37,565 nt of DNA from NCBI GenBank assembly GCA_015228975.1, contig JADGCN010000011.1, positions 1 to 37,565 of the forward strand, written 5' to 3'. This document shows positions 14,897 to 32,526 of this stretch, one piece after another. This DNA is from Magnetococcales bacterium (lineage in GTDB: Bacteria > Pseudomonadota > Magnetococcia > Magnetococcales > UBA8363). Position 1 is the stretch's first letter, and every line of letters begins with the position of its first letter. Under the pieces are notes generated by a model. The model was given only the letters and a program-made list of their open reading frames with translations. It made no database searches and had not been told where the DNA came from. The position numbers and the translations under genes were made by a program.

Positions 14897-16126
14897 TCAG
14901 CTTTGGGGCGTACGTATGCCCTGGCCAGGGGTTGTCGTGTCGCTCAATCTTTCCGTTACCATACCCATCTCTACCATCCCGGACAAGTTACGGTAAATGG
15001 TACGCATGTGTTCCAGGCGCTCCTCCTGGGGCGGCAGGTGTAAAAAAGATCCGTAGCACTGGCCGTTGCGTCGGGTGACCTTCATGAGAGCCTGGGCCAG
15101 GGCGGGTACATCTCTGGGTGGCAGCACGGTTACGTGGGGGGGGGGCGGCGTAAGAATGTTCTGCCACTCCGGTATGGCAGTGGTTATCACGGGACATCCC
15201 ACGCTATCGGCCTCCAACAACAAACTGGGATACAACGTCGTCGTCAAGGCAGCGCGATAGGGCAATACCAGGACATCCAATCGTTCCAGTAGACGTTGCG
15301 TCGGTACCAACCCCAGGATGGCTACCTTGTCGCCGATATGAAAATGCTGGATTGCCTTTCGTATCCGGGTTGCGTTGCCATCGCCAGAGAGGGCCAGGAG
15401 CAGACGCAGATGGTTGGCCTGATTGGCAGCCCTGGCAAATGCGGCCAGCAGATCATCGACCCCTTTCACGGCAAAACAATGTCCGATATAGCCTACCAAC
15501 GTAATGGTTTCGTTGTCAAAGTCAACGGGTAGTTCCAGTTGGGGGGCGTGGTCTTCGGGGGCGAAAAGGGCTAGGTTGGCGGCTGTTGAGACTTTGTCAT
15601 ATCCCAGGGATTTCAAGGCTGTTGCCGCATGGGAACCGATGGCCAGGTGGGAAGCGGTCAGCCATCTTCCGGCCAGTGACCAACAATAATGATTGATGAT
15701 CATGCGTGGGGCCAGCATACCTGGATCATCCCAAAGGGCTTGCCGGTGGGCTTGATCCCAACGGGTAACCGCCCCTTCGTATTGGATGAGGATGCGCTCC
15801 TGAGGGAAGTCAACCAGCCAGACCAGCCAACTGAAGGCGGGTGAGGGGAGAACCAGGTGCAAAACGGTATCGGGTCTTTGCATCTTCAGGCTGATGTTGC
15901 GCAACAAATGCCATGTTTCTTTGAGGCGGACCCAAAATGGCAAGGTGACGTAGGCATCCAAAGCTGTTTTATCGGCTGAGGCAACGCCGTGGGGTAACAG
16001 CAGGGTTGCCTCCACACCCTTCTGCTTGAGCAGGGTGATGAGGGCATTGATAGCCGTGACTTGGCCACCCATGCGCAAGTTAAGGACTATAAAGACAATG
16101 GCTGGGTCGTTGTTTTCACGGGTCAA
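14897..16126 (-). CDS. Glycosyltransferase, GT-B fold (family 4-like)
   Basis: The protein has the GT-B N-terminal strand IVFIVLNLRMGGQVTAINAL, with the Met-Gly-Gly loop, a linker, and a C-terminal lobe with LVGYIGHCFAVKGVDDLLAAF, KVAILGLVPTQRLLERLDVLVLPY and LLEADSVGCPVITTAIPEW, the donor-binding region of family 4 enzymes. The start is uncertain. The first ATG in a conserved place (16072) would cut the first beta strand, so I propose TTG at 16126, giving 409 aa. The open frame runs further to 16300, but that part crosses a terminator hairpin and is unlikely to be coding. A run of 10 G (C in the coding strand) at 15136-15145 encodes part of a Pro stretch. Confidence 0.8.
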   Translation of the reverse strand: MTRENNDPAIVFIVLNLRMGGQVTAINALITLLKQKGVEATLLLPHGVASADKTALDAYVTLPFWVRLKETWHLLRNISLKMQRPDTVLHLVLPSPAFSWLVWLVDFPQERILIQYEGAVTRWDQAHRQALWDDPGMLAPRMIINHYCWSLAGRWLTASHLAIGSHAATALKSLGYDKVSTAANLALFAPEDHAPQLELPVDFDNETITLVGYIGHCFAVKGVDDLLAAFARAANQANHLRLLLALSGDGNATRIRKAIQHFHIGDKVAILGLVPTQRLLERLDVLVLPYRAALTTTLYPSLLLEADSVGCPVITTAIPEWQNILTPPPPHVTVLPPRDVPALAQALMKVTRRNGQCYGSFLHLPPQEERLEHMRTIYRNLSGMVEMGMVTERLSDTTTPGQGIRTPQS

Positions 16127-16129
16127 ATT

Positions 16130-16163
16130 GGATATCTTTCTTGGATATCTTTGGGATATCTTT
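16130..16163. promoter_or_regulatory. Three direct copies of GGATATCTTT ahead of the glycosyltransferase gene
   Basis: GGATATCTTT occurs at 16130-16139, 16143-16152 and 16154-16163, each with the palindrome GATATC, spaced 13 and 11 bp. The block lies between the minus-strand terminator at 16225 and the proposed TTG start at 16126. It could be a regulator site or part of the leader. If the start is further upstream, it is coding. Confidence 0.35.
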
Positions 16164-16224
16164 GCCAGAGCAGAGTTTCGGAGAGTTTCCGAAACATTCC
16201 GAACGCTTTCCAATTTTACCCTGG

Positions 16225-16281
16225 AAAAAAAAAAAGCCAAGGGTCGGTAGAGGGGGGGGGAGAGGGGAACCGACCCTTGGC
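16225..16281 (-). terminator. Strong intrinsic terminator, minus strand
   Basis: A 13-bp perfect stem (GCCAAGGGTCGGT at 16236-16248 against 16269-16281) with a 20-base loop holding a run of nine G/C is followed, in the minus direction, by 11 T (16225-16235). It lies upstream of the glycosyltransferase gene on the same strand. It therefore ends either an independent small RNA or an attenuated leader. Confidence 0.85.
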
Positions 16282-16476
16282 CATAGGTGTGTAAACACAA
16301 CCTATGTCAAAAGCTCACAAGGAGCTTGGACCAGGGACAGATGAAGGGGGGTACGCCTATCCCTGGTAAGGGCAAAAGAGTAAACCTTCCGCCCTTGCAT
16401 TAGCCGAGGAATGGCTCCTTCGGCTAAGTTGATGTCCTGCTTGAACCTGAAGGCCGGTACATGTTTCCTTGGCCTT
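16225..16476 (-). ncRNA. Candidate structured RNA: seven stem-loops ending in an intrinsic terminator
   Basis: Stems, plus-strand coordinates, in transcript order: 16471-16476 with 16450-16455; 16420-16427 with 16400-16407; 16391-16396 with 16368-16373; 16360-16367 with 16330-16337; 16322-16327 with 16311-16316; 16300-16306 with 16282-16288; terminator 16269-16281 with 16236-16248. All are perfect 6-13 bp stems, and the last is followed by 11 T. There is no credible open frame. An A/T-rich TATATATAA stretch just upstream (about 16479-16490) could be a -10 region; the -35 is poor. I could not match it to 6S, SRP, RNase P or tmRNA signatures. GGA occurs in three loops or linkers, as in Csr/Rsm RNAs, but this is weak. 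Confidence 0.55.
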
Positions 16477-16806
16477 GATTTATATATATCAAAGAGTGTA
16501 CCAAGATTGAATAATCAACAATAACAATTAGATGATCTCTTTTCAGCCAGGAGTGGGCATGGGGGTGTTAAAAAATTTTCCACATTCATGAAAAAATTAC
16601 CGGTTCATGGGTTGATAAATGTATGAAAAATTAATATAAATCAATAGATTATAAAAACAACGTAAAAAAAGTTTCCATGAAAGAGGGGGGTGTGCAAAAT
16701 TAGACACATGTCGTGAAGAGTGGGGCGCAATACCTGGAGTGATCTGGGATATTGTTATGATAGCTATTTGTAAAAGTGCAATTTTTTGAGATAATATTGA
16801 CGATAT
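16477..16806. other. Gene-free A/T-rich region
   Basis: No credible open frame is present between the candidate RNA and the TAXI gene. Much of 16565-16680 is A/T-rich. The region should contain the promoter for the minus-strand RNA and possibly the end of the TAXI transcript, but I see no strong terminator. Confidence 0.5.
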
Positions 16807-19804: not shown

Positions 19805-19829
19805 CCGCTTTGGATTGAAAATTTCAGGT

Positions 19830-19979
19830 TAAACCGTAGCTATCTTGGGATGTGTAGTTATTGTCATCCTCGCGAAAGCGGGGATCCAGAGGACTTTCCT
19901 ACCTCCCCTGACTTTCTGGATTCCCGCTTTCGCGGGAATGACACTGGAAAACTACGTTTCCCGTGTTGGTTGCGGTTTA
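19830..19979 (+). repeat. 150-bp TA-bounded nested-palindrome element, copy B
   Basis: TAAACCGTAG...TTGCGGTTTA, same length as copies A and C. The internal arms are CGCGAAAGCGGGGATCCAGAG and its partner CTGGATTCCCGCTTTCGCGGG. It lies between the MORN gene start and the 3' end of the CCA-like gene, ending 9 bp from the latter's stop codon. Confidence 0.92.
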
Positions 19980-19988
19980 GTGTTCCAG

Positions 19989-24967: not shown

Positions 24968-25723
24968 CTATTCTGAATCGATCGTTTCCAGAAAGCCTGC
25001 GGAGCCACTCCCAATGGCGTGGGGTAAACGTTGCAAGACAGCATTGACCCAGGCTTCCTTGGCTTTTTGCATCATGGGGCTGGGATGGGCATACAATCCG
25101 GGATACCCGGGAATTTCAAGGCCCACAATGCGATGGGTCACCAGAGTTGCCAAACATTGGCGGGCCAGGGGTAGCAGTCCGGGATGCCGTCCCCACCCCA
25201 CCAAGAGGGGGATGGATGCATCCCCCCCCATGCGCACCCGGCGCTCCTCGGTCCGCAAGGGGGAAAACAAGGAGTGTGCGGAGCCTTCGGGGTGATGCTC
25301 CAGCGATTGAAAGCGCTGAATAAAAACTGGGCTTTTGGTTTCCCGGAGATCAGACAGATTGAGTACCCGGGCATGTCCCAAGTCCCGAGCCAGCATGATT
25401 CGCATGATTTGGTACTGCGTATTGTCCGGGCGGGTTGGTGTCAGTTGACCCAGTGGGTTGATATCCCGGGCCTTGGCGACAGCCTGCGACCGGTAGTGGC
25501 GGTCCAGGGGGCGGGAAGAACCGGGATTCATCATAATGACCAATAAATCCGGTTGCATGCGTCCGATATGGTCCGGGAATGTGGGAACGAGATCCTTGCG
25601 AATCAATTCCAAAACCGGGCGCAACTCGGTCACTTCTCCCCCCAACGGCAGGGTAATGAACTGACCAAAGACAGAAAAATTTTTTTTTATGGCTTCCGCT
25701 TTGATACGGTTCACATCAGACAT
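24968..25723 (-). CDS. DUF1643 family protein
   Basis: The 251-residue protein has the conserved DUF1643 opening LLVIMMNPGSSRPLD, followed by DNTQYQIMRIMLARDLGHARVLNLSDLRETKS, and IVGLEIPGYPGLYAHPSPM near the end. The family resembles the uracil-DNA-glycosylase fold superfamily in outline, but no activity is established, so I give none. An 11-C run (25787-25797) lies between it and the upstream J-domain gene. The start is ATG 25723. Confidence 0.75.
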   Translation of the reverse strand: MSDVNRIKAEAIKKNFSVFGQFITLPLGGEVTELRPVLELIRKDLVPTFPDHIGRMQPDLLVIMMNPGSSRPLDRHYRSQAVAKARDINPLGQLTPTRPDNTQYQIMRIMLARDLGHARVLNLSDLRETKSPVFIQRFQSLEHHPEGSAHSLFSPLRTEERRVRMGGDASIPLLVGWGRHPGLLPLARQCLATLVTHRIVGLEIPGYPGLYAHPSPMMQKAKEAWVNAVLQRLPHAIGSGSAGFLETIDSE

Positions 25724-25803
25724 CGTTTGGATCTCCCTGTCCAGTCGGCGTCCATGACGTCACCACATGATCCTTTTGTGTGATCTCCCCCCCCCCCTTA
25801 TTA

Positions 25804-32055: not shown

Positions 32056-32133
32056 AGTGGTTTTAAGATTGGTCTTGATCACTCATATCGCCAATTATGT
32101 AATAATAAATATCATTCTGAAAAATTTCAGCGT

Positions 32134-32283
32134 TAAACCGCAGCTATCTTGGAATGTGCAGTTATTGTCATCCCCGCGAAAGCGGGGATCCAGAGAACCT
32201 TCCTACTTTCCCTAACTTTCTGGATTCCCGCTTTCGCGGGAATGACGCGGGAAAACTACGTATCCCGCGTTGGTTGCGGTTTA
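32134..32283 (+). repeat. 150-bp TA-bounded nested-palindrome element, copy C
   Basis: TAAACCGCAG...TTGCGGTTTA, 150 bp, with perfect TAAACCGCA/TGCGGTTTA ends. It carries the two arms CCCGCGAAAGCGGGGATCC and GGATTCCCGCTTTCGCGGG, plus a third short hairpin GCGGGA...TCCCGC. It lies 78 bp after the antitoxin stop. Confidence 0.95.
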
Positions 32284-32287
32284 ATTC

Positions 32288-32330
32288 AATGACGCTGGAA
32301 AACTACGTTTCCCGTGTTGGTTGCGCTTTA
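32288..32330 (+). repeat. Truncated right end of the 150-bp element
   Basis: These 43 bp repeat the last 43 bp of the element (AATGACGCTGG...TTGCGCTTTA), placed directly after copy C. It matches copy B more closely than C in this part, so it is the remnant of a second copy rather than a tandem slip of C. Confidence 0.8.
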
Positions 32331-32526
32331 AAGCCAGCAACACCTTCCCAAGCGCACTCCCCGCCCAAAAATAAGTCACGTTTCTCTACCATATGGTGCC
32401 ATGGCGTGGAATCCTGCCCAAAAAGTAAGCATCTGCATGCAAGCCGTGCCTCTATATTAAGCATTTATGGGGCCATTAGCTAGAATGTATAAGAAATTAA
32501 TGTTTAAAATTAAATAATTATCTCTA

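Follow-up and report, generated by a model that had tools for sequence, protein, structure and literature searches.

The window analysed here, a 37,565-nucleotide stretch of DNA from a Magnetococcales bacterium, carries on its minus strand between positions 16225 and 16476 a dense chain of stem-loops, and the question is what this chain encodes and how it might act. Fold and covariation point to a small RNA of about 253 nt (16225–16477, minus strand, U-run included), its start being predicted from the promoter. The chain is very probably a conserved small regulatory RNA of the Magnetococcales with runs of C in its loops, and it may be switched on by a two-component system. As judged from sequence comparison, this reading combines a conserved and covarying RNA, C-loops common to four families, a promoter motif, and linkage to a response regulator outside the window's genus.

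Fold and conservation of the RNA

Folding of the minus strand over 16225–16476 gave an energy of -104.9 kcal/mol as against -74.4 ± 4.9 for shuffled sequences (z -6.25, with 0 of 200 shuffles as good), and the plus strand was less extreme (z -4.21). In a scan of 448 windows of 252 nt across the 37.6 kb (446 from a grid covering the two strands and two from the focal stretch itself, one per strand; 20 shuffles apiece), the focal minus strand ranked second (z -6.9), in agreement with the unusual density of structure that the sequence-only reading had remarked upon. First in the scan came 32089–32340 (z -8.6 when shuffled 200 times), one of two copies of a long palindromic, MITE-like repeat, GTCATCC...CGCGAAAGCGGGGATCCAGA...TCTGGATTCCCGC...GGGAATGAC, the other lying at 19825–19985.

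The minimum-free-energy fold of 16225–16476 contains eight hairpin loops on the minus strand, at 16475–16451, 16446–16434, 16427–16400, 16396–16368, 16367–16330, 16327–16311, 16306–16282 and 16281–16236. The first two stems are weak, and those at 16427–16400 and 16306–16282 each contain a bulge. Seven perfect stems had been proposed earlier; the chain of stem-loops is recovered, whereas the count becomes eight and two of the stems are not perfect. The 5' stems (16400–16475) are common, in the alignment, only to the nearest genome (G005). Core stem 1 (16368–16396) varies in sequence while its pairing is kept, with 7 of 12 pairs changed on both sides, and is followed by C-loop hairpin 1 (16330–16367), a C6 loop in which GGCGTACCCCCCTTCATC is invariant in the seven genomes holding the place. 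Fold and alignment then give a small variable hairpin (16311–16327), and the hairpin CATAGGTTGTG...CACCTATG (16282–16306; the CATAGG hairpin) is nearly invariant within the genus. The chain ends in C-loop hairpin 2 (16225–16281), which holds the second run of C found in a hairpin loop of the window's RNA, a C9, and which by fold, alignment and covariation doubles as an intrinsic terminator, its 13-bp stem (16281–16236) being followed by 11 T down to 16225. The strand, the place and this terminator are as described before; the runs of C in two of the loops, the most telling trait of the RNA, do not figure in the sequence-only reading.

No Rfam family reached its gathering score at the locus, the only such match in the window being a tRNA elsewhere, in keeping with the earlier description of the RNA as unassigned. 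With E up to 10, seven matches were obtained over 16050–16806, all far below their cut-offs and none to the model 6C, which we take to be the Rfam name for RNAs of the B11 type; on 16 related loci there was no gathering match, to 6C or to any other family. The run of C in the terminator loop is 9, 9, 7, 7, 7, 6 and 7 long in seven genomes of the genus, and a run that may be 9, 7 or 6 long breaks any reading frame, which argues against a coding function. These length differences, together with the compensatory changes described below, support the proposal of a structured RNA that is non-coding and has a terminator at its end.

When 61 genomes were searched by DNA, matches came from the window's own genome and from 7 of 7 others of its genus, the match in one of them (G002) comprising only 29 bases at a contig end, and the 53 more distant genomes gave none. 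The core, the 3' part of about 170 nt, is conserved in seven genomes. An 18-base pattern from the first C-loop was found at nine places in a named genome collection of 257 billion bases; five are Magnetococcales MAGs, among them HA3dbin1, DCbin2 and DCbin4, and the four in other groups are about what chance would give in 257 billion bases. In the alignment of the seven core sequences, standard pairs make up 94.1% of the pair cells and 13 of 53 pairs are changed on both sides, so that the compensatory base changes looked for in homologous regions are present. This count is conservative, since G006 is slightly misaligned in stem 1, a stem that folds cleanly when taken by itself. The covariation score was reached by 0 of 500 shuffles and the number of further pair types by 91 of 500, and sliding the partner by one to three bases collapsed the covariation measures. 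Because the shuffle control may be inflated by the relatedness of the sequences, it is the slid control and the pair types that carry weight.

A covariance model of the core (R1), built from one genus and so liable to miss more distant members, had matches with E no higher than 0.05 in 16 of 48 genomes searched within the order, namely seven of the window's genus (family f1), eight of genus g7 in family f7, and one of family f9. Across the phylum, 15 of 398 genomes had a match to the model, all of them inside the order.

Promoter motif and linkage to a response regulator

A sigma54-like -24/-12 promoter, TTGGTACACTCTTTGATA (TGG-N8-TTGAT; 16487–16504, minus strand), ends 10 bases before the first minus-strand base of 16225–16476, with identical spacing in 7 of 7 genomes of the genus. 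The -24 element is kept, and the -12 part reads TTGAT, not the usual TTGC, in all seven. Related promoter forms precede the RNAs of families f7, f9 and f13, the -12 part deviating in G015 (TGTGAAG) and G019 (CTGGAA). Of the nifH leaders of the genus, 6 of 6 have TGGCAC between -80 and -101, followed in most, judged by eye, by GC at the -12 place. The sigma54 gene was found in 7 of 8 genomes of the genus; it was not found in the window's own genome, which is 75.9% complete.

The upstream block that is kept in the genus consists of the pattern TGTCNAAWTTTGCAC, boxes of the GTGGAAA-N5-TTTCCAC type, and the TGG-N8-TTGATA promoter. In the window, all on the minus strand, the pattern is matched by the box TGTCTAATTTTGCAC (16692–16706), a palindrome-like box at 16662–16678 precedes the promoter by 174 bases (relatives have such boxes at -171 to -186), and another, GTGGAAA-N5-TTAACAC, lies at 16565–16583, 79 bases upstream, where it is a candidate activator site whose position is repeated in relatives. 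Singly these palindromes are weak, as 222 matches (at least 11 of 14 positions, any spacing) occur in 400 kb of G006. It is their placement that stands out: over 20 promoters from five families, an N5-spaced box 171–186 bases upstream was present in at least 10 (all f1, f7, f9, f13) and a second box at 77–95 in at least 7, six with 5 and one with 6 bases between the halves; both counts are lower bounds that take the best four sites per row. The pattern TGTCNAAWTTTGCAC has 10 matches in eight genomes, seven of them upstream of the RNA, as against 0 for the reversed control, and the surroundings of the other three are unlike one another. Control by NifA, considered for the TGT-N10-ACA look of an upstream box, is not favoured: TGT-N10-ACA occurs in 4 of 6 nifH leaders of the genus and the TGTCNAAWTTTGCAC box in 0 of 6. 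A perfect palindrome, CCCCCCCCTCTC...GAGAGGGGGGGG, was also observed before a gene in G006 (L190, near 1466–1525).

In family f7 two genes stand immediately before the RNA, one for a histidine kinase with the domains PAS, GAF, PAS and ATPase, and one for a response regulator that combines a receiver with sigma54-activation and Fis-type domains. In G027 the RNA is followed by RNase HII, and G043, an f7 genome missed by the model, also has the RNA behind the regulator. Since R1 derives from one genus, the RNAs of f9 and f13 were mostly found by searching the order for the regulator and reading the stretch behind the best matches. The same gene order, with a related promoter and C8–C10 hairpins, was seen in f9 (G032, G028, G015) and f13 (G019). 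Regulator and RNA adjoin in 11 of 13 genomes of the three families, the exceptions being G045, with other open frames between them, and G035, with the two on different contigs.

The regulators of f7, f9 and f13 and seven from the window's genus belong to the 20 rows, out of 36, that a 99/97 split sets apart in a midpoint-rooted tree of 36 of 37 rows chosen from many paralogs, G010 having been dropped as it gave no frame. A regulator of this clade is thus present in 7 of 8 genomes of the window's genus, where it is not beside the RNA: in the six genomes that were read, the regulator, with a kinase before it, lies elsewhere and has no C-loop RNA behind it, and in G003 the regulator locus was not located. 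From this co-occurrence, the pair of RNA and regulator seems to have been split apart in the window's genus.

C-loop hairpins across families and at a second locus

All seven genomes of the genus have a C6 and a C6–C9 loop, and the number of C-loop hairpins per RNA is two in the window and reaches five by a strict count in relatives. At the f7 loci such hairpins, with the form CCA(A/G)GGG...CTCCCCCCCCTC...CCC(T/C)TGG, are arranged in arrays of two to five units by this count, which admits runs of 5 or more C, and of more by eye. Of 21 loci, 3 (two of G015 and that of G028) yielded no unit in the strict count, as the promoter form or distance failed the rule there although C-loop hairpins are listed, and the wrong promoter was used for G035. 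In the 5' part of the G028 RNA (L087), TTAAGCAGTATCGTAGTTGAAG occurs three times without a mismatch between the promoter and the C-loops, at spacings of 83 and 75 bases. A candidate from family f10 (G016), with one C5 loop and a regulator outside the clade, was not counted.

Twenty C-loop hairpins from four families show at least two standard pair types at 8 of 10 stem positions, and the stem base, C3-G and A4-U, never changes. As these hairpins were picked for having stems, the evidence lies in the variety of the pairs and not in the 195 of 200 paired cells. Strong stems around runs of C are rare: they were found at 2 of 276 tracts in the G006 sample and 4 of 1480 random positions, at 1 of 416 C-tracts versus 2 of 1480 random positions in the G027 sample, and in the window at 1 of 34 tracts (the terminator) versus 6 of 1500 random positions, C-loop hairpin 1 falling under the threshold of the strong-hairpin rule.

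A second, intergenic C-loop locus, comprising a small and a long hairpin with a C9–C11 loop, occurs in six genomes of the genus (in the middle of each of L155, L166, L167, L188, L189 and L228). Its loop, GGCCTCCCCCCCCCTCTGAGC, is invariant in five of them and G005 carries a run of C11. The locus lies between two LysR-type genes, assigned by Pfam in G001 and elsewhere by likeness. In 6 of 6 loci the fold of the C-strand is more stable by 6–16 kcal/mol than that of its complement, since positions that mismatch on the complement can pair as G-U on the C-strand; in three loci checked, no sigma54 pattern precedes the hairpin. A similar hairpin is present in G032 of f9 (L214, near 1500). This second locus suggests that the C-loop is a reused part.

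Known systems and possible modes of action

A sigma54-type promoter and control of a small RNA by a response regulator are features of Qrr with LuxO, and the RNA described here would resemble Qrr in both respects; the Rfam Qrr model scored 18.8 bits at the locus versus a cut-off of 50. CrcZ is a decoy RNA with a sigma54 promoter, a place beside a response regulator and repeated motifs (PMC8395346). CrcZ and CrcY with CbrAB in Pseudomonas are like the RNAs of f7, f9 and f13, which in 11 of 13 genomes lie directly behind a response regulator and have a sigma54-like promoter and repeated motifs. The CrcZ motifs are A-rich and bind Hfq, whereas the runs of C here sit in hairpin loops, and in the window's genus the RNA, unlike CrcZ, is encoded apart from the regulator; 8 of 8 genomes of that genus have Hfq. 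NrsZ of Pseudomonas, a sigma54 RNA of about 226 nt from the ntrC intergenic region (PMC8395346), is likewise a sigma54 RNA near a response regulator gene (NtrBC), but the locus here has no Rfam match, and the part of PMC8395346 that deals with NrsZ does not mention C-loops. B11 of the Actinobacteria carries C-strings in two loops, through which it pairs with G-tracts of 5' UTRs (PMC10470900). The RNAs of the window's genus share with 6C/B11 the hairpin loops with at least six C; the differences are the phylum, the f7 arrays of more than two units and the sigma54-type promoter. RepG of Helicobacter pylori has a C/U-rich terminator loop and lies next to an orphan response regulator (PMC8295292). 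It is similar in its C-rich terminator loop and regulator neighbour and differs in that it has a known G-repeat target and in that the RNA here has two or more C-loops.

We tentatively favour, as a reading a little short of probable, a small RNA that acts in trans, is transcribed from a sigma54-type promoter of its own under control of the kinase/regulator pair, and pairs through its C-loops with G-rich stretches of mRNA. The histidine kinase and response regulator would activate this promoter, strong hairpins would hold the runs of C open in loops, the loops would base-pair with G-rich mRNA stretches as those of B11 and RepG do elsewhere, and, with the kinase active, this pairing would alter how several mRNAs are translated or how stable they are. 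Transcription, activation by the regulator, whose genes are unlinked from the RNA in the window's genus, and the base-pairing step are what we infer here. Runs of six or more in 5' non-coding stretches, with home-made gene calls and coding overlap removed, gave 32 G and 22 C over 613 genes of G006 (p 0.22) and 21 G and 20 C over 318 genes of G027, no significant bias being found in either; a smaller tract count at -150 to -31 (281 and 287 genes) gave 16 G6 and 4 C6 in G006 and 19 and 20 in G027. The complement of the terminator loop, allowing one mismatch, had 46 matches in eight genomes versus 41 for the reversed control. Six of the 46 are the RNA itself, and the 24 of the 40 others that were read had no shared mRNA leader: the site common to G000 and G005 lies opposite a frame, that common to G003 and G004 lies inside a frame, and three matches (G003, G004, G006) belong to the second C-loop hairpin. 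The atypical -12 TTGAT, the failure to find sigma54 in the window's own genome and the separation of regulator and RNA in the window's genus also stand against this reading, as does the invariant stem base C3-G and A4-U, which antisense pairing does not need.

The main rival is that the C-loop hairpins are decoys for a protein that binds runs of C, Rho, which favours C-rich RNA, being one candidate. The RNA made by the two-component system would then titrate the protein off mRNAs as CrcZ does with Hfq and Crc, which we regard as possible but rather unlikely. The tandem similar units of f7 (two to five, strictly counted), the conservation of loop and stem base alike, the C-loop of the same kind at the second hairpin locus, and a genetic layout like that of CbrB-CrcZ (PMC8395346) speak for such a sponge; upstream of genes there is no excess of C-runs, and the window's genus has only two units. 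It counts against it as well that we know of no protein of the kind that recognises C-loops. Base-pairing is preferred over the sponge because of precedent and not because of evidence found here. A more doubtful extension would add a third type to the bacterial sponges, next to those with GGA (Csr) and with A-rich motifs (CrcZ), in which two-component, sigma54-driven C-loop arrays titrate a C-loop-binding protein and the other C-loop hairpins of the same genomes belong to its regulon. We consider it improbable that the C-loops of the small RNA are a by-product of terminator-like repeats or repeat expansion, with the function residing in other invariant parts such as the CATAGG hairpin; within the genus that hairpin indeed hardly varies, the terminator is itself C-loop hairpin 2 and, by eye, T-runs follow several f7 units, but the C-loops are common across four families and recur at the second hairpin locus.

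Two further proposals came from the sequence-only reading. An attenuator or leader of the downstream glycosyltransferase genes would fit their position on the same strand and a first likely gene start about 100 bases past the terminator, but the terminator is strong and the RNA is kept while the downstream genes change. The neighbours are transporter and glycan genes in the window and G005; the frame facing the RNA matches the beta subunit of a Na+-pump decarboxylase in G001 and G004, where this was tested, and belongs to that family by likeness only in G003 and G006; S-adenosylhomocysteine hydrolase precedes the RNA in G006, and transcription-repair coupling factor lies beside it in G007. Since the RNA keeps its promoter and sequence through these changes, attenuation is not supported and can hardly be expected, and the RNA looks like an independent small RNA with a unit of its own. 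A CsrA sponge with GGA in its loops is very unlikely: in minimum-free-energy folds of seven RNAs of the genus, six have no fully unpaired GGA and the remaining one has a single copy, and on this count the proposal was rejected for the window's RNA. CsrA is present in 46 of 48 genomes of the order, and the loose CsrA-like pattern ACA(A/C)GGAUGU, or a near form of it, occurs in the f13 RNA and in 8 of 9 from f7, mostly within 40 bases downstream of the promoter (L060–L067, L084, L086), but in 0 of 3 f9 RNAs; CsrA may therefore touch those of f7 and f13.

Many members of the Magnetococcales are magnetotactic, and a literature search on small RNAs in the order or in magnetotactic bacteria returned no regulatory small RNA of the order among the matches listed. 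Precedents exist both for a sigma54 RNA next to a response regulator and for C-rich loops; as far as we have seen, their union, with the arrays, is new. The Magnetococcales would thereby gain a candidate RNA regulator tied to one two-component system, and with the C-loop array one could test cleanly whether loops in several copies work through antisense pairing or through titration of a protein. Two long runs of G were observed in the window. One of 10 identical bases (15136–15145, plus strand) lies inside the glycosyltransferase frame 14897–16117 and is a possible slippage site, and one of 11 G followed by AGA (25787–25797, minus strand) lies in a gap, 64 bases before the start of a 251-aa frame (24968–25723), where it could pair with the terminator loop.
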